A stretch of DNA of 64,000 nucleotides from Sulfuricurvum sp. (GTDB lineage Bacteria > Campylobacterota > Campylobacteria > Campylobacterales > Sulfurimonadaceae): the NCBI RefSeq assembly GCF_030691015.1, contig NZ_JAUYFF010000001.1, positions 248,001 to 312,000 on the forward strand. The letters run 5' to 3'. The position numbers were made by a program, and so were the translations under genes. Numbering within the stretch: position 1 is the stretch's first letter; each line of letters begins with the position of its first letter. Of the stretch, positions 51,736-59,895 are shown piece after piece. The notes below the pieces were generated by a model. That model saw only the letters and a list, made by a program, of their open reading frames with translations. It was not told the origin of the DNA and did not search any database.

Positions 51736-53796
51736 TTAGAACCTTTTCTCGTACGTTACCAGCCAATTACGCCCTTCACGTCGCAACCCCTCATTTTTTC
51801 CTTGATACGACGGGTACATCACCGGTTCATTAAAAAGATTTTTCGCACTCACTGTTACAGTCGAAGATTCATCCATGTCATACGCTATCGTATGATCGAT
51901 AATCATCGTAGAATCGTAGGTTACTCCGTTACCGGTGTTATCACGATCATATCCCTTTTTAGGACCGCTGTAATACCACGCCGTATTGAAGCTCAACGCT
52001 TCACTCCACGGATAGAGAAAATACCCCTTGCTCAACACCTCAGAAATCTCAGGACTTTGAAATAACACCGGATGAGTATAGCTGGGAGAAAAATACTCTG
52101 TTTTCACATAGGAGAAATTCGCCATCAATTCAGACCCGTTTCCGAAGCGGCGGGTAAACTCCAGCTCTGCCCCTTTGGCGTTGCGCTGTTTATGATTGGC
52201 ATAATCCCCGACAAAAGAGGGAGGCTCATCTTCTATACGGTCAATCACATCTTGCATACGTGAGTAAAATAGGTTGCCTCGTATAATCGTAGACTCATTT
52301 TTATGGGTATATGCCAGTTCATACGTGTCGATCAGTTCCGGTGTCAAATTCGGATTTCCGTTTTTTAACCCTTCCTGTGCCGATTCAAACGCTTCAACGT
52401 ACGAAGGGGCTCTGTACGAGCGTCCATAAACCGCTTTGAAAATATTGCCCTCATCAAGTCGATAGACAGTACCTAAACGGTAACTAAACATCGTTTCAAA
52501 CAACGCATAATTATCTAACCTCACATTGGCGGAGAGATCCCAATCGTTGTTGATCGAATAGATATCCTGAACATAGGCAGATTTAATCCATTGATCGTTA
52601 TCACCGTTTAACAATCCGTATTGTCCATCGAGATACACCAAAGAAGGGCTGAAGAAAGTAGGCCCACCATCTTGCTGATCTCGAATCGTTGCTCCAAAAA
52701 CATTTTTTAGAGTATTGATCTTTTGCGCACCGACCCCGACCATCCACGCATGGTCTTCAATATTTTCCCCCTTAAGGTTCATATCAAGATAGGAATTTAA
52801 TTGCCGATAGGTCGGGTTCATCCGTAATATCATGCCGCTTCCGCCATAATCTTGATACACCGTTGAGTCAAAGCTAAAGGCGTAATAGTTCACTCCGACT
52901 TTCGTTTCCAGACTCAGATCATGATCGAGGGTGTGTCTGTTTTGCAGTTCAACGATACCGCTTTGATTGTGCTGATAACCGCCCTCAACCGGCTCAAGCG
53001 TTTCATTCAATCCGTAAAAATTATCCGCTATTTCCGATTTGTATCGGGCGATCAATGTAAAATCGCTGTTTTTAGCAATGACCCCGATTGAATAATCTTC
53101 GAAACTCTCCAAACTATTATAATCTAAACGTTGATAGGATGCCTCTTGCGCCGCAACGAATGAACTGCCGGCATCTAGTTTTTTGTTGCTATGCTGATGA
53201 TAGCTGTCAATTCCGACATTCCATTGACCTATATTGAGATGCTTGATAAATCCGGCTTTGGTATAATCATAACTCCCCACCGAGCCAAATACCGCATCAC
53301 TCGTCCCGCTCTGCGAACTTTTTGTGATGACGTTGATCGCTCCGCTGAACGCTCCCGGGCCGTAAATCGTCGAAGCCGATCCGCGAAGCACTTCGATTCG
53401 GTCAATCAGTTCCACAGGGAAATCGAGGTAGAAATAGCTGGTGCTATAAAGATCGCTTCCGACATCTACTCCGTCGATATAGAGTTTATACTTGTCGAAA
53501 ACAAAAGTATCGGGATTGTGAGCTCCGCGAATAATCACCTTTTTCCATCCCGTATGGAGAATCGATGTTTCGATCCCCGGAAGCAACCCAATCGCTTCAT
53601 GCAGATTGCGGATACCGATTTTTTTAAGCTTATCGGCATGTAAAATAGAAACAACAGAGGGCTGATAATCGATATTGAGTTTGGTTTTGGTGGCGATGCC
53701 GGTCACTTCATTCAATAATGCACTAAAATCGTCATCAGCATCAATCGTGCTGGAAAAGAAAAGAAGAGTTATAAAAATACCGTAAAATTTCATCAC
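51736..53796 (-). CDS. TonB-dependent outer membrane receptor
   Basis: A 686-residue receptor: signal peptide (1-20, 'FYGIFITLLFFSSTIDA'), plug domain (~40-160, 'LHEAIGLLPGIET', 'IDRIEVLRGSASTIYGPGAFSGAINVIT') and a 22-strand-type barrel ending in Phe ('VTYEKRF'). It imports a chelated metal, haem or similar ligand with TonB energy. Ligand unknown. Its early sequence 'IATKTKLN-DY-P' is shared with the receptor at 53993, so the two are paralogues. It is divergently oriented to that gene across 196 bases. Confidence 0.9.
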   Translation of the reverse strand: MMKFYGIFITLLFFSSTIDADDDFSALLNEVTGIATKTKLNIDYQPSVVSILHADKLKKIGIRNLHEAIGLLPGIETSILHTGWKKVIIRGAHNPDTFVFDKYKLYIDGVDVGSDLYSTSYFYLDFPVELIDRIEVLRGSASTIYGPGAFSGAINVITKSSQSGTSDAVFGSVGSYDYTKAGFIKHLNIGQWNVGIDSYHQHSNKKLDAGSSFVAAQEASYQRLDYNSLESFEDYSIGVIAKNSDFTLIARYKSEIADNFYGLNETLEPVEGGYQHNQSGIVELQNRHTLDHDLSLETKVGVNYYAFSFDSTVYQDYGGSGMILRMNPTYRQLNSYLDMNLKGENIEDHAWMVGVGAQKINTLKNVFGATIRDQQDGGPTFFSPSLVYLDGQYGLLNGDNDQWIKSAYVQDIYSINNDWDLSANVRLDNYALFETMFSYRLGTVYRLDEGNIFKAVYGRSYRAPSYVEAFESAQEGLKNGNPNLTPELIDTYELAYTHKNESTIIRGNLFYSRMQDVIDRIEDEPPSFVGDYANHKQRNAKGAELEFTRRFGNGSELMANFSYVKTEYFSPSYTHPVLFQSPEISEVLSKGYFLYPWSEALSFNTAWYYSGPKKGYDRDNTGNGVTYDSTMIIDHTIAYDMDESSTVTVSAKNLFNEPVMYPSYQGKNEGLRREGRNWLVTYEKRF

Positions 53797-53992
53797 TACT
53801 CTCGTCTACAAAATAGGCAAATTGTACCGCAATTAGCAGTAAATTAACTATCACTTAGAGAATATTCGTAATCCTTTCTTTGAAACAACCGTAATTTTTC
53901 TGTGGCGTGCAAAAGGAGAAGTGCCTTTTATGTTATTATTATGAGTAATCATCCATATAGTCCATTTAAAGCCTTTTTACCACGGAGCGCGA
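53797..53992. other. Intergenic region between divergent TonB receptor genes
   Basis: AT-rich region with no clear Fur box. Candidate -10 boxes are TACAAT on the minus strand and AT-rich stretches on the plus strand. A leader with AGGAG (53921-53925) precedes a tiny reading frame (M-P-F-M-L-L-L) and, from 53941, a 37-codon frame that overlaps the receptor start. These are probably chance. Confidence 0.4.
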
Positions 53993-56062
53993 TTGAAGCC
54001 TTTATCAGTTTTATTTATTTTACTCTTACTACCATCATCACTACTCTTGGCTGAAAATGATGATGATCTTGATAAAGTCTTAGAAGAAGCAACCTATATT
54101 GCGACAAAGACAAAGTTAAATGCCGATTATGTACCCGGAACGGTAACAGTAATCAGCGGTGAAAAATTAAAGTCGCTGGGAATAACCAATCTTGCGGAAC
54201 AAAACGCGTTTGACATGATTGTCGGATTTGATTCATCAACCCTCTCCCTCCGAGGAGCGGGATCAATCTATGGAGCGCAAGGGAATAAAATCAAGTGGAT
54301 GATCAATGACAAGCCGATAAGTTCCGAAATATGGGGAATTCCGAAACTGGGTGTCGGGCAGATAGTATTCCCGATCCCGACAGATGCGGTTGATCGAATC
54401 GAGATCATCAGAGGGCCCGGATCAGCGATTTATGGCGGTAACGCAATTTACGGCGTGGTTAATATTATTACAAAAAAAGAGACGGGTAGTGTGTTTACCA
54501 CTCTATCGCAGATGGAAAGCAATAAATTCGGGAAAGGGGTAGGCGCCTACGGTACTTTTGAAAAAAATGATTTAGAAGTAACCACAATTGTCTCAGCGGA
54601 TAAAAGTGACGGCTGGGATTTGCCGATAACCACCCAATCTCCGGCAAGGGATGGCAATCTTCCCAATGCAAGCAGAAACAATCTTTTTATGGCTGATATA
54701 TCTTATAAAAATTTTGATTTCTGGACATACAGACTGGAAGCCAAGAATGACTATGCACGTTTGCAATGGGACCCCTCAAACTATCTGCCCCAAGATAATG
54801 ATGAGCCTGTTCAATCCAATACCTACACCATGATAGGTGTGCAAGGAAAGTATAATGTTTCCAATGTTGTACTCACCGCAAAAGCCGGTATCAATCAATA
54901 CACCAATCGGGCCGAAGTTGTATTCAAACCGTCATCCGTATTGGGAAATAATCCAAATCACCTAGACGGTGTACGAAAAGTTGATTACGTTGAAAGTACA
55001 AAATATGTTGAAGGAATTGTAGAAACAACGGTTGGATCCAACCGGTTGCTGGGCGGAGTCTATGCCGGTTTTCTCTCTGTTGATCAAGATGATGTTTTAC
55101 AAACGTGGAGCGGTAACAACTATAACCCAGGTATATCAACCAATTTATTAACGGTAAATGATCCTAAAAGAATCAATAGAGCTTTGTACCTGCAGGATGA
55201 AATACTGCTAAATGACCAAAGTACGCTAACCCTCGGAACACGTTATGATACCTACAGTGACGGTAGGAATGCTTTATCTCCTAGAATAGCTTTTGTCTAT
55301 ATGCACGATGAATCCAATATTCTAAAAGCTCAATACTCAAGAGCTTTTAGACCGTCTAGCTTTTCAGAACAGTATTCTCCTAATAATCAGGTTTCAACGA
55401 AAACGTATGAATCAGAAACGGCCGATACGGTTGAGCTCTCTTACATTTTCAAAACAAAAGAGACCTCTATCAAAACAACAGCCTTTCATTCCAGAACTCA
55501 TAATATGATTACGTATCATGATTTTACCTACGAAACGATAAATCTTGAGAGCCCGACAACCGTTAACGGACTTGAACTTGAGTTGAGCAAAAATTATGAA
55601 ACGCTCAATCTTGGTGCAAATATGGCTTTTTATAAATCACACAGAGGAGAAGTACACCTGAGTAGAGGCGGTCTTGTGCTTAATTATGACCCCAGTGAGT
55701 TCGCATTGTCCTCTAAGGTGATGGCAAATGTATTCGCTACCCTCAACAGCGATACGCACTATCCGACGACATTATGGTATCACTATACCGGAAACAAAAA
55801 CAGAGTCAATAATGCTATGCTGGATGCCAATGGCAACATCGTCACTATTTATACTACAAACGGTTCTACACCTGCTCAAGATTATTTGAATATCACACAA
55901 AAAATCAATGGAATATCCAAAGGGGTTGATTTGGAATTCGGTGTCAAAAATGTCTTTGGAAAAACACTAAAAACTCTCTATTTTCCGCTAAATCCGCCTA
56001 ATACGAGTGATGTCCCCTACATGGGGCAGACGTTCTGGGTTAATTTGCTTTATAAATTCTAG
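53993..56062 (+). CDS. TonB-dependent outer membrane receptor, paralogue
   Basis: A 689-residue receptor: signal peptide ('PLSVLFILLLLPSSLLLAE'), plug domain with 'VDRIEIIRGPGSAIYGGNAIYGVVNIIT', and a barrel ending in Phe ('NLLYKF'). The usual plug phrase for the first loop is altered ('LAEQNAFDMIVGFDSS' in place of a typical 'LPGV' segment). The start is TTG, with GGAG five bases upstream; the signal peptide requires it. It is followed by a histidine kinase and a YfiR-like gene on the same strand. Confidence 0.9.
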   Translation: MKPLSVLFILLLLPSSLLLAENDDDLDKVLEEATYIATKTKLNADYVPGTVTVISGEKLKSLGITNLAEQNAFDMIVGFDSSTLSLRGAGSIYGAQGNKIKWMINDKPISSEIWGIPKLGVGQIVFPIPTDAVDRIEIIRGPGSAIYGGNAIYGVVNIITKKETGSVFTTLSQMESNKFGKGVGAYGTFEKNDLEVTTIVSADKSDGWDLPITTQSPARDGNLPNASRNNLFMADISYKNFDFWTYRLEAKNDYARLQWDPSNYLPQDNDEPVQSNTYTMIGVQGKYNVSNVVLTAKAGINQYTNRAEVVFKPSSVLGNNPNHLDGVRKVDYVESTKYVEGIVETTVGSNRLLGGVYAGFLSVDQDDVLQTWSGNNYNPGISTNLLTVNDPKRINRALYLQDEILLNDQSTLTLGTRYDTYSDGRNALSPRIAFVYMHDESNILKAQYSRAFRPSSFSEQYSPNNQVSTKTYESETADTVELSYIFKTKETSIKTTAFHSRTHNMITYHDFTYETINLESPTTVNGLELELSKNYETLNLGANMAFYKSHRGEVHLSRGGLVLNYDPSEFALSSKVMANVFATLNSDTHYPTTLWYHYTGNKNRVNNAMLDANGNIVTIYTTNGSTPAQDYLNITQKINGISKGVDLEFGVKNVFGKTLKTLYFPLNPPNTSDVPYMGQTFWVNLLYKF

Positions 56063-56158
56063 TGAATATCAGACAAGCAGGGTAAAGTTGTCTGAACATT
56101 TAATCATAAATTAACCAATACTTATATATTATTAATTTATGTTACTACACATTGGATT

Positions 56159-57589
56159 ATGATGACACATTCTCTTATCGGAAAATTCGCCTGGGTATTC
56201 TGGCTGCTTTACATTGCGGTTATTGCCCCTATCTTTATCTTTATTCAAATCAATGTCTCATCGGTTCTCAACGAAAGTGAAAAAGCAAAAGTTGAACTGG
56301 TTACCCAAACGCTCAAACCGATTATTTCAGCCTATCTGACATTCGAACAGCAAGATATGCTCAGCGATACTATGCGTACCTTTTTTCAAAATCCTAATAT
56401 TCTGAAGGTATCGTTGATCGGTACAAACCAAAAGGTTATTTTTGAGCAACACTATCCCCACTCCAAAACAGAAGAGACAACAACCTTCTCTACCCCTGTG
56501 AGCGATTCCATTACCCATCAGAAACAAGCTACGCTTGTAATCAGTTACTCAAACAAATTTGTCCATGATCTTCAATATAAACTTTTTCTGCAGCTCATTC
56601 TTCTCTCTTTGTTTGCGTTGCTGATATTTTCCATTACCTACTTGTATTTTCGAAAACAGTTTTTTATTCTCCGCCTTTTGTCAAACTGGATGGGAAGCTA
56701 CACCATAGATAAAGCTACCGAACCGTTCAAAAGTGATAATACGAATACCGAGATATTAACCATCACCTCTTCGGCCAATAAAATGCTCGAAACCATCGAT
56801 AACTATCGTTGTCAAATGGAGCAGATCAATAATGAGCTTGAACATCGGGTCGAGACCGAAATTACCAAGCGTCGTGAAAAAGAACAGCTCCTGGTTCATC
56901 AATCCCGTCTTGCAGCAATGGGGGAGATGATAGAGAGCATTGCCCATCAATGGCGTCAACCTTTGAATATCATCGGATTGGCAATCGCCGACATCAATAT
57001 GAAACGGGCACTTGGGTTGCTTGAAGATGCCGAGATTGAGAAAAATAATGCCATTATCAATAACAATCTTGCTTTTATGTCGAATACTATCGATGATTTC
57101 CGAAACTTTTTCAACATGGATAAAGAGTGTCTCAATTTTGACCCGATCCAACCCATCAATGAAATATTTACCCTTTTAGGCGAACAACTGCGCTATGCCA
57201 ACATCACGTATCTCATACATAAAAAATGTGATGATGAGATCTTCGGTGTTGCCAATGAATTCAAACAAGTGATTTTAAATATTGTCAATAATGCTCAAGA
57301 TGCCATTAAAAGCAAACAAGATCAAATCGGAGGAAAGATCGAAGTCACTTTGCGTTGCGATGCACATCATCTTTATATTGATATCAGCGATACAGGAGGA
57401 GGGGTGCCGCCTTCGATAGTCGAACGTATTTTTGACCCCTACTTTACAACCAAACTTCATAAAAAAGGGACCGGTATCGGACTTTATATGTCCAAAGTCA
57501 TCATCGAACAACATTTTGAAGGCTCCCTCAGTGTGCGTAATACGCATGAAGGTGCCCTCTTCACATTGACTATGGCTCTGAGCCGATAA
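56159..57589 (+). CDS. Membrane sensor histidine kinase
   Basis: A 476-residue kinase: membrane helix ~10-32, small periplasmic domain (~33-140), second helix ~143-165, a coiled-coil linker, then the phospho-acceptor 'IAHQWRQPL' (H263) and an ATPase domain (N box 'ILNIVNNAQDAI', G boxes 'DTGGGVPP' and 'GTGIGLYMSK'). No response regulator gene is adjacent. It starts 96 bases after the receptor and abuts the YfiR-like gene, which overlaps it by one base. An inverted repeat, CAGACAA-11-TTGTCTG (56070-56094), lies upstream. Confidence 0.9.
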   Translation: MMTHSLIGKFAWVFWLLYIAVIAPIFIFIQINVSSVLNESEKAKVELVTQTLKPIISAYLTFEQQDMLSDTMRTFFQNPNILKVSLIGTNQKVIFEQHYPHSKTEETTTFSTPVSDSITHQKQATLVISYSNKFVHDLQYKLFLQLILLSLFALLIFSITYLYFRKQFFILRLLSNWMGSYTIDKATEPFKSDNTNTEILTITSSANKMLETIDNYRCQMEQINNELEHRVETEITKRREKEQLLVHQSRLAAMGEMIESIAHQWRQPLNIIGLAIADINMKRALGLLEDAEIEKNNAIINNNLAFMSNTIDDFRNFFNMDKECLNFDPIQPINEIFTLLGEQLRYANITYLIHKKCDDEIFGVANEFKQVILNIVNNAQDAIKSKQDQIGGKIEVTLRCDAHHLYIDISDTGGGVPPSIVERIFDPYFTTKLHKKGTGIGLYMSKVIIEQHFEGSLSVRNTHEGALFTLTMALSR

Positions 57590-58119
57590 TGAAAAAATCG
57601 ATTCTTCTCTTTTGCATACCGTTTCTCCTATGGGGTAGTACGTATGATGCTACCTTATTGCAGATTGGGGCAAAACTATTTCCCAAAGTCGCAGTGATGG
57701 AAAAAGGGACAAAAGAACGTATTCAATCGAATGTAAATTTTATCATTATTACAACCCCCTCAAATAAAGTGGCTGCACAACGATTATCCGAGATGATTGA
57801 ACGTCAATACGGCGGAACACTTAGCAATTATTCTCTTAACGTCTCAATTGTTTCGGCTAAAGAAGCTTTGGAGATCAAAAATGCGCATGGCTTTATTCTA
57901 CTGCTAGATCCGGATGAGAGTATCCTCTCACCCCTGTTGGAACACGCACATGAGAATAAAATATTGACGTTTAGCTTCGATCCCGTATTACTTCAAAAAG
58001 GGGTGGCAATATCACTGTATATCGGAAGAAGCGTAAAACCTTATATCAATCTAACCACACTCAAACAGGTACCGTTTACTTTTGAATACGGTTTCTTGAA
58101 ACTTTCTCAGTCTTATTAA
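57589..58119 (+). CDS. YfiR-like (DUF4154) periplasmic protein, tentative
   Basis: A 176-residue protein with a signal peptide ('KSILLFCIPFLLWGS') and an alpha/beta domain. The order of strands and helices, 'GFILLLDPDES', 'GVAISLYIGRSVKPYINL' and the C-terminal 'YGFLKLSQ' match the pattern of YfiR/DUF4154 proteins, which in Pseudomonas restrain a partner signalling enzyme from the periplasm. Assignment is by pattern and context only. Overlaps the kinase gene by one base, so the kinase is the likely partner. Ends in a four-base overlap with the opposing cyclase. Confidence 0.6.
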   Translation: MKKSILLFCIPFLLWGSTYDATLLQIGAKLFPKVAVMEKGTKERIQSNVNFIIITTPSNKVAAQRLSEMIERQYGGTLSNYSLNVSIVSAKEALEIKNAHGFILLLDPDESILSPLLEHAHENKILTFSFDPVLLQKGVAISLYIGRSVKPYINLTTLKQVPFTFEYGFLKLSQSY

Positions 58120-59492
58120 GATTTATTAATCTCAATTCTATTTCTGCCGTTTTTCTTCGCTTCGTACATTGCTCCGTCCGCTTTTTCAAAAAGTGTTTTT
58201 TTAGTATCTTCTCCGCTTAGCTGAGCAATTCCAAAACTTAATGTCATATTCTTGTCGACGTAACTAAAGGTATGCGCTTCGACAATCTTTCTTAGATTTT
58301 CTGCTAAATTATACGCACCCGTCATATCGGTTGCCGGGGTTAAAACGACAAACTCTTCGCCCCCCCACCGTGCAAAAATATCTCCGTTTTTGATATTGCT
58401 TTCAACAAGGTTTACCAAGTCAATTAAAAGAATATCACCCGCCTGATGCCCATACGTATCATTTACCAGTTTAAAGTGATCAACATCAAAAATGATCAAA
58501 CTGAGCGGTAGATTATTCTGCTTCGCATTGGCTATCTCTATGCTAAAAATATCTTCAAAATTTTCCCGATTGTTAATCCCCGTCAGTTTATCTCTGAACG
58601 CTTTTTGCTCCAATGTATTTGTCATGGAATAAAGTTCATCAACCTTATTCTTCATCGCTTTATTGATATTTCGCAACTGCTGTTTGGTCTCTTCTAACTC
58701 AGTGATATCGTGTCGGATCGCTATGTACTCTACAACATCTCCATCAACATCCAGAATCGGTATAACGGTGGTATCGACGATGTACTGCCCTCCGTCTTTT
58801 TTCATATTGGTGACCACACCGCTCCAGCTTTTTTTTGCTTTGATGGTGTCCCATAAATCTTTGAAAGCATCTCGAGGCATATCCGGATGTCGGATGATGT
58901 TGTGCGGTTTGCCTATCAGTTCATTTCTGGTGTATCCTGATATCTCACAAAACTTGTCATTGACATAAGTTATAACCCCTTTAGGGTTCGTTTTAGAGAC
59001 AATATTGCTCAAATCAACCGCTTTTTTATATTCCGCCAAAAGATTTGAGTTTTCACTTTTATAATTGCTGTTTGAACTTATAAGATTTTCAAAATTGGAT
59101 GCCAGATCATTCGCCATTTGCAACGTTAACGAATCAATTTCACTTTGGAGTGCATAGGAGAGATTTCCTTTTTCAAAAATCACCTGCTCTATCGCATTTT
59201 TGAGTTTTGTAATCAAGGTAAAAAGATCGGAGACTGTGACATTGTAATTATTCAAAAGTTGTAAAAAATCAATTTTTACTTGGCACTCCGTGACCGTTGC
59301 ACGCCACTCAATTACACTGATGTAACAATCACAAAACTGGTAAAAAAGGTGGGTGTTTTTTTCAATGATAGGTAAAGAGTGTCGATGAAGTACATTTTGA
59401 ACTTCACTTTGATCCATCCAAATTTTTATAATCTCATTTCTGCTTATACGCAAAAAATAGGAAAATTCTTCGCTATTGATAATTTTAATCAC
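58116..59492 (-). CDS. PAS-GGDEF diguanylate cyclase, probably cytoplasmic
   Basis: A 458-residue protein without membrane helices: helical N-terminal domain (1-~160), PAS domain (~165-280) and GGDEF domain. The PAS contains 'NIIRHPDMPRDAFKDLW', a sequence seen in Aer-like redox PAS domains that bind FAD. The active site is GGEEF (377-381). Where an RxxD inhibitory site should be, the sequence is K-N-G-D, so product inhibition may be absent. Tail-to-tail with the YfiR-like gene. Confidence 0.88.
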   Translation of the reverse strand: MIKIINSEEFSYFLRISRNEIIKIWMDQSEVQNVLHRHSLPIIEKNTHLFYQFCDCYISVIEWRATVTECQVKIDFLQLLNNYNVTVSDLFTLITKLKNAIEQVIFEKGNLSYALQSEIDSLTLQMANDLASNFENLISSNSNYKSENSNLLAEYKKAVDLSNIVSKTNPKGVITYVNDKFCEISGYTRNELIGKPHNIIRHPDMPRDAFKDLWDTIKAKKSWSGVVTNMKKDGGQYIVDTTVIPILDVDGDVVEYIAIRHDITELEETKQQLRNINKAMKNKVDELYSMTNTLEQKAFRDKLTGINNRENFEDIFSIEIANAKQNNLPLSLIIFDVDHFKLVNDTYGHQAGDILLIDLVNLVESNIKNGDIFARWGGEEFVVLTPATDMTGAYNLAENLRKIVEAHTFSYVDKNMTLSFGIAQLSGEDTKKTLFEKADGAMYEAKKNGRNRIEINKS

Positions 59493-59625: not shown

Positions 59626-59895
59626 ATGAAAGGTATTGGCACTGTGTTGGCCGTTTTGATGTTAACGGCAGCCTTATATGCTGAAAACAGAGAAAAAAAA
59701 TGGATACCCATTGAGCCAATCACCTCAAATCACGTTTCTAAGCTTGAGAGTAATACTTCCAAACTTCAAAGCGGCAATAAAACGATTCAAAATTTAAAAA
59801 TCATTAAAAACCTGCTCGATCATGTCAACAAGGGGGGCGTTACTCCAGAAAATGAAAGAACCTGGTACTCCCTTGAGCCAATGGATGATAATTGA
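59626..59895 (+). CDS. Small exported protein, unknown function
   Basis: An 89-residue protein with a signal peptide (1-~19, 'VLAVLMLTAALYAE') and a short polar region rich in Ser, Asn and Lys. GGAGG lies seven bases before the ATG. TATAATCT occurs twice upstream (about 59600 and 59614), giving candidate -10 boxes. No family recognised. Confidence 0.55.
   Translation: MKGIGTVLAVLMLTAALYAENREKKWIPIEPITSNHVSKLESNTSKLQSGNKTIQNLKIIKNLLDHVNKGGVTPENERTWYSLEPMDDN

Follow-up and report, generated by a model that had tools for sequence, protein, structure and literature searches.

A TonB-dependent receptor, a YfiR-like protein and an inner-membrane signalling enzyme travel together in Sulfuricurvum and its relatives

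Results

Genes of the locus

We have analysed a 64,000-nucleotide stretch of a Sulfuricurvum sp. genome (the window, which lies on contig C4 of genome G000) and, within it, a locus that encodes two TonB-dependent receptors (TBDRs), a histidine kinase (HK) and a small YfiR-like protein. In the sulfur-oxidising Sulfuricurvum and its relatives, a TBDR, a YfiR-like protein and a signalling enzyme of the inner membrane form a unit whose parts are inherited together and can be exchanged, which suggests a signalling route from the cell surface to the cytoplasm. An earlier, sequence-only reading of the locus had described a divergent pair of receptors, the second followed by an HK and a signal-peptide protein, with an opposing PAS-GGDEF gene; all five open reading frames (ORFs), with their strands and coordinates, were confirmed.

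TBDR1 (51736-53796, minus strand) is divergent from the operon and contains Plug (Pfam E 1.3e-16) and barrel (E 2.5e-34) domains. The 196-bp intergenic region between the divergent receptor starts (53797-53992) is presumed to be regulatory; a promoter and terminator scan of it gave promoter-like sites no better than those of shuffled sequences and established no motif. TBDR2 (53993-56062, plus strand), again with Pfam Plug and barrel domains, is the first gene of a putative operon. The HK, with two transmembrane (TM) segments (56159-57589, plus), starts 96 bp after it, and the gene for a 176-residue periplasmic protein with a signal peptide (57589-58119, plus) begins at the last base of the HK gene, a 1-bp overlap. 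As had been noted from the sequence, the HK has no response regulator beside it.

A divergent YfiR/DUF4154 protein

The YfiR/DUF4154-like pattern recognised earlier in the 176-residue protein is borne out by both profile and fold. The Pfam DUF4154 profile (PF13689) matches with E 2.8e-4 over positions 35-142 of 143. The score of 21.5 bits is 3.4 bits short of the curated cut-off of 24.9, which is reached by other members of the same group (among them G236, G231, G164 and G040:C147). An AlphaFold2 (AF2) model built from 38 family members has a pLDDT of 87.5, and Foldseek places crystal structures of Pseudomonas aeruginosa YfiR, alone and with YfiB, among its top matches. The best YfiR entry, 4yn9, matches with E 7.8e-6 and a TM-score of 0.75 on the target; 4zhu and 4yna reach 0.76-0.78, and the YfiR entries overall 0.62-0.78, consistent with the YfiR fold. 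Searches of the PDB with the sequence and with its family profile returned no YfiR, which only the fold search gave. Judged by profile and predicted structure, the protein is a divergent member of the YfiR/DUF4154 family.

P. aeruginosa YfiR contains two cysteine pairs, Cys71-Cys110 and Cys145-Cys152 (PMC4655355). Both are absent from the window protein, whose sole cysteine, Cys9, lies within the signal peptide. The mature form has none, which rules out in it the redox lock reported for YfiR.

The kinase sensor and its relatives

The HK has TM segments at residues 13-31 and 142-160, which enclose a periplasmic domain of approximately residues 32-141. The coding part of this divergent, CHASE8-like and YfiR-linked sensor domain spans 56240-56593 (plus). 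Its output is of the HisKA/HATPase type, not GGDEF: HATPase_c matches with E 8e-20 in Pfam, and the H-box phosphoacceptor His263, in HQWRQPLN, is invariant in 10 HK orthologues.

Comparison of profiles with HHalign relates the periplasmic domain to that of diguanylate cyclases following YfiR in sister loci (probability 96.7%, 99 columns) and to the sensor of the GGDEF-EAL group (93%), whereas two-TM control proteins encoded away from YfiR genes all remained below 10%. The controls exclude high-scoring proteins three genes from a YfiR gene (L040, L078, L114, L119, L121, L124 and L125) and two linked loci in which the ORF picker had missed or mislabelled a gene (L106 and L107). The HK sensor is thus homologous to that of cyclases encoded next to sister YfiR genes, and a single input module serves several kinds of output. 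Between the sensor group of the window and the CHASE8 group the profile comparison gave 45%. The proteins of the classic loci (L089, L090, L094 and L102) and of the plasmid loci described below do match CHASE8, and classic DUF4154 genes of Campylobacterota often pair with clear CHASE8 proteins, including one kinase in the genome of the window. This second, classic module (G000:C4:628076-628501; L089) consists of a GGDEF protein, DUF4154 and a CHASE8-HAMP-HK, followed by a TBDR.

Linkage across genomes

We gathered approximately 100 YfiR-type loci from Campylobacterota and dereplicated them at 50% identity to 43, with no correction for phylogeny. A TBDR lies within three genes in 38 of the 43, a two-TM HK or GGDEF protein in 37, and both are nearby in 33; 641 genes located further away, taken as background, include only 8 TBDRs and 16 two-TM HK or GGDEF proteins. 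The coupling of receptor, YfiR-like protein and kinase proposed from the single locus is thus supported. In the genome of the window all four YfiR-type genes stand beside a TBDR, and five of its ten TBDRs belong to such loci. The same genome also contains a weak YfiR-like match with two stop codons (G000:C19:196544-196699), perhaps a decayed module.

We searched 38 genomes of the genus with a profile of the HK sensor domain (A4), which was trained on linked members but free to match elsewhere. Of its 58 matches, 54 are no more than 4.3 kb from a YfiR-like gene; three of the others are at contig ends and the remaining one (G012:C122) is a genuine orphan. A single kinase of the genus, L166:6878-8338, was found to be a clear orphan, with the YfiR-linked sensor but no YfiR-like gene nearby. 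Conversely, a listed sensor match occurs within 5 kb of 52 of the 56 well-matched YfiR-like genes. Three of the other four are near contig ends, and the fourth (G025:C110) has such a kinase, seen at the protein level. By these counts the partnership of YfiR-like protein and sensor domain is close to obligate, and the output behind the sensor varies between GGDEF, GGDEF-EAL and kinase.

The association extends to other classes. A protein search of plasmid records identified four DUF4154 loci in Alpha- and Gammaproteobacteria (two in Sphingobium, one each in Indioceanicola and Pseudoalteromonas), and all four have the arrangement TBDR, DUF4154 and either a CHASE8 HK-REC or a CHASE8-HAMP-GGDEF-EAL protein. 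The receptor beside DUF4154 on the Pseudoalteromonas plasmid (L174:2911-4971) is annotated as two pieces, plug and barrel, and is possibly a broken gene.

Exchange of site, receptor and output

Orthologues of the HK-YfiR pair are found in 12 genomes of the genus, that of the window included, at four chromosomal sites. Going by putative gene names read from the sequence, one site is murD-parA, another adjoins uvrB, a third adjoins a gene resembling citrate synthase, and the fourth is flanked by hemE-like and rmlA-like genes. The sequence-only reading had named in advance, as the finding that would speak against its proposal, neighbourhoods in relatives where these genes do not stay together. 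The proposal withstood this survey, since the genes stay together even where the cassette lies elsewhere in the chromosome.

The receptors had been described as a pair, but in relatives they are alternatives and not fixed companions: the HK-YfiR pair is accompanied by TBDR1, in divergent orientation, in seven genomes, by TBDR2 in four, and by both in the window alone. All TBDR1 orthologues (67-93%) of the seven other genomes belong to the HK-YfiR locus, and contig ends truncate two of them. TBDR2 has orthologues in six other genomes, four at HK-YfiR loci (inverted in L044), where it serves as the alternative receptor in relatives lacking TBDR1, and one, in G031, beside a YfiR-cyclase module (L168). 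Receptor type is patchily distributed on the HK-YfiR tree, the internal nodes of which are weak.

Outputs are exchanged as well. At another type of locus (L040 type) TBDR and YfiR are accompanied by GGDEF-EAL in most genomes, by an HK in L169 and by both in L170. In three natural fusions DUF4154, a coiled coil and a TM segment are joined to GGDEF (L103:2248-3789), to a SpoIIE phosphatase of the PP2C type (L104:5125-7035) or to HK-REC (L105:5360-7909), each with an adjacent TBDR. The text of the 2012 paper on these systems does not name SpoIIE as a Yfi output (PMC3375315). In the sister HK operons L069 and L123 the last gene encodes a regulator of the OmpR type. These TBDR-YfiR-HK-regulator operons (L069:5724-15953 and L123:6-10555) adjoin a two-partner-secretion protein with GLUG repeats and a ShlB-type transporter, which points to surface attachment (adhesion) as a possible output for them.

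The convergent PAS-GGDEF gene (58116-59492, minus) had been counted as a linked member, with cyclic di-GMP (c-di-GMP) as a possible output. Its product has no TM segment and the gene is kept in only 4 of 11 HK-YfiR loci (those of relatives being L041, L042 and L047); being soluble and poorly kept, it was rejected as output partner and placed outside the cassette. In sister modules with a membrane cyclase the output is c-di-GMP; in the window cassette it is not. Downstream, 59626-59895 (plus) encodes a small signal-peptide protein of 89 residues with a KKWIPI motif, kept in relatives. Its gene directly follows the YfiR-like gene in L043 and L048; the PAS-GGDEF gene lies between the two in the window, L041 and L047.

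The receptors and their N-terminal motif

Both receptors have complete Plug and barrel domains and are 26% identical overall. Pfam detected an STN domain in neither, and no OmpA/Pal (YfiB-like lipoprotein) match was found among the six proteins scanned; the outer-membrane genes of the locus are the TBDRs. Assignment of a substrate, for which the sequence-only reading had suggested a chelated nutrient, was attempted and abandoned: PDB and NCBIfam searches gave only distant catecholate, haem and B12 receptors, and neither protein comes near any of the substrate-specific NCBIfam cut-offs.

The two receptors share a motif with other YfiR-linked receptors; it lies immediately ahead of the plug, in the N-terminal segment that faces the periplasm, and in TBDR1 this segment reads TGIATKTKLNIDYQP (53659-53703, minus). 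The motif N-x-D-Y-x-P, with variants, occurs in 54 of 56 receptors of divergent-YfiR loci and in none of 20 receptors encoded away from YfiR genes in 16 genomes; rows proving to be linked loci, or not the receptor of the module, are left out of these counts. Identity between TBDR1 and TBDR2 is 69% over the 16-residue motif stretch, compared with 34% in the plug and 18% in the barrel. The segment is a candidate docking site.

Discussion

Comparison with known systems

The closest parallels are YfiBNR/TpbB of P. aeruginosa, HmsCDE of Yersinia and YfiLRNB of E. coli. Like the cassette, they combine a periplasmic protein of the YfiR fold with an outer-membrane component encoded alongside. Their inner-membrane protein carries a periplasmic sensor of PAS/CHASE8 type, flanked by two TM helices, to which the HK sensor of the cassette, likewise enclosed by two TM segments but with a weak CHASE8 signal, is a putative counterpart. 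The cassette differs in that the outer-membrane partner is a TBDR and not the OmpA/Pal-like lipoprotein YfiB, the output is an HK and not GGDEF, and the YfiR-like protein is devoid of the cysteine pairs. Malone et al. described YfiN-type sensors joined to HK, HPT, GGDEF-EAL or MCP outputs, mostly without yfiB, and made no mention of TonB receptors (PMC3375315). A kinase as partner of YfiR, which the sequence-only reading set against the cyclase partners of known YfiR proteins, is supported as a coupling but has precedent, the modularity of outputs, HKs included, having been published in 2012. To these YfiNR-like pairs our survey adds the receptor and a divergent Campylobacterota YfiR group, the TBDR as a standing partner being the new part; in the open literature (subscription journals and preprints lay outside the scope) we found no TBDR described as the outer-membrane partner of YfiR, DUF4154 or HmsC.

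TonB-dependent transducers of the FecIR type, such as FecA, also report ligand from an outer-membrane receptor to the cytoplasm through a relay. Unlike them, the cassette receptors have no STN domain, the locus has no sigma/anti-sigma pair, and the relay consists of the soluble YfiR-like protein and a kinase or cyclase. LapD/LapG resembles the cassette in that the periplasmic domain of a membrane c-di-GMP protein, LapD, binds a periplasmic protein, but LapD relays its signal outward, and the protein that it binds is a protease.

A three-part signalling cassette

We consider it probable, on balance, that TBDR, YfiR-like protein and HK constitute a three-part transmembrane signalling cassette in which the state of the receptor is passed via the YfiR-like protein to the kinase. 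The precedent is YfiR-YfiN (PMC3375315, PMC4655355): YfiR represses YfiN through its periplasmic PAS/CHASE8 domain, and YfiB holds YfiR at the outer membrane (PMC3375315). By analogy, the most likely scheme runs from receptor state to YfiR-like protein to kinase. The TBDR would take the place of YfiB as input, and the YfiR-like protein would move between the receptor and the CHASE8-like sensor domain of the kinase. A change in receptor ligand or TonB state would lead to its capture or release, altering kinase activity and the phosphorylation of a response regulator encoded elsewhere. What the sequences show directly is the linkage of the genes, their families, the near-obligate pairing of sensor domain and YfiR-like gene, the exchange of receptor and output, and the fusions; physical contact, ligand, sign of regulation and partner regulator are inferred.

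Several observations weigh against this interpretation. CHASE8 is only weakly detectable (E 0.086, with LapD_MoxY_N at E 0.16), and in a single one of 10 HK orthologues, so that the case for homology with the sensor of YfiN itself is built on topology and the common YfiR partner. The YfiN motif AAVVF is not literally present in the HK, which has an invariant Phe62 at about that place. The AF2 model of the full HK is poor (pLDDT 58), and its weak match to CdgS9, a LapD orthologue (4u64, periplasmic domain), therefore adds little. Five of the 43 dereplicated loci have no nearby TBDR, and the motif of the receptors may be the mark of a shared clade instead of a site of binding, descent being able to explain part of its distribution.

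The same genes would also cluster if the YfiR-like protein captured a ligand imported by the TBDR and presented it to the HK sensor, the receptor acting as importer only, with no docking. Foldseek indeed also returns a substrate-binding protein of Rhodothermus marinus (6k1x, E 6.9e-6) and ABC substrate-binding domains (3lkv, 3lft). The TM-scores are, however, better to YfiR (0.75-0.78 on the target, against 0.59-0.62 for 6k1x and 8wgl); true YfiR, which works by protein contact, is already known to resemble 3LFT (PMC4655355); and DUF4154 is also fused straight to coiled coil, TM segment and output. We regard this binding-protein role as unlikely. Less probable still is that the YfiR-like protein itself senses redox or envelope state and the TBDR is merely one of the genes that the kinase controls. 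For systems without YfiB, Malone et al. proposed that conserved cysteines provide a redox input (PMC3375315), and the YfiR-HK loci L053 and L065 have no nearby TBDR, but the mature window protein has no cysteine with which to do so, and a target-gene role explains neither why two receptors so dissimilar alternate at the same HK-YfiR core nor why TBDRs are neighbours of all three kinds of output, cyclase, SpoIIE and HK. Chance, or simple co-location at a receptor locus, could be entertained from one locus alone, and the PAS-GGDEF neighbour is such a case; for the cassette it is highly improbable, being contradicted by the neighbourhood survey and by an almost obligate association seen in dozens of genomes, at four chromosomal sites and in other bacterial classes.

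The three-part cassette may have a wider counterpart. The best-studied Yfi system is thought to read the state of the envelope via YfiB, whereas many relatives have no YfiB, and the 2012 paper did not settle what their input is (PMC3375315). We tentatively suggest, at slightly less than even chances, that TBDRs are the missing outer-membrane input of many such systems, that the YfiR-like protein docks, depending on ligand, on their periplasmic N-terminal segment (NxDYxP in the divergent group), and that the whole would be a plug-and-play surface sensor in which receptor (and hence ligand) and output (c-di-GMP, phosphorelay or PP2C phosphatase) are exchanged independently.

The recurrence of a TBDR partner makes the input question of YfiB-less systems directly testable, and a single genus already supplies natural variants with the receptor or the output swapped, ready for experiments on the coupling of two membranes by periplasmic adaptors. 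Such a partner predicts that uptake receptors would also gate c-di-GMP and phosphorelay signalling, with neither an STN domain nor a sigma factor.

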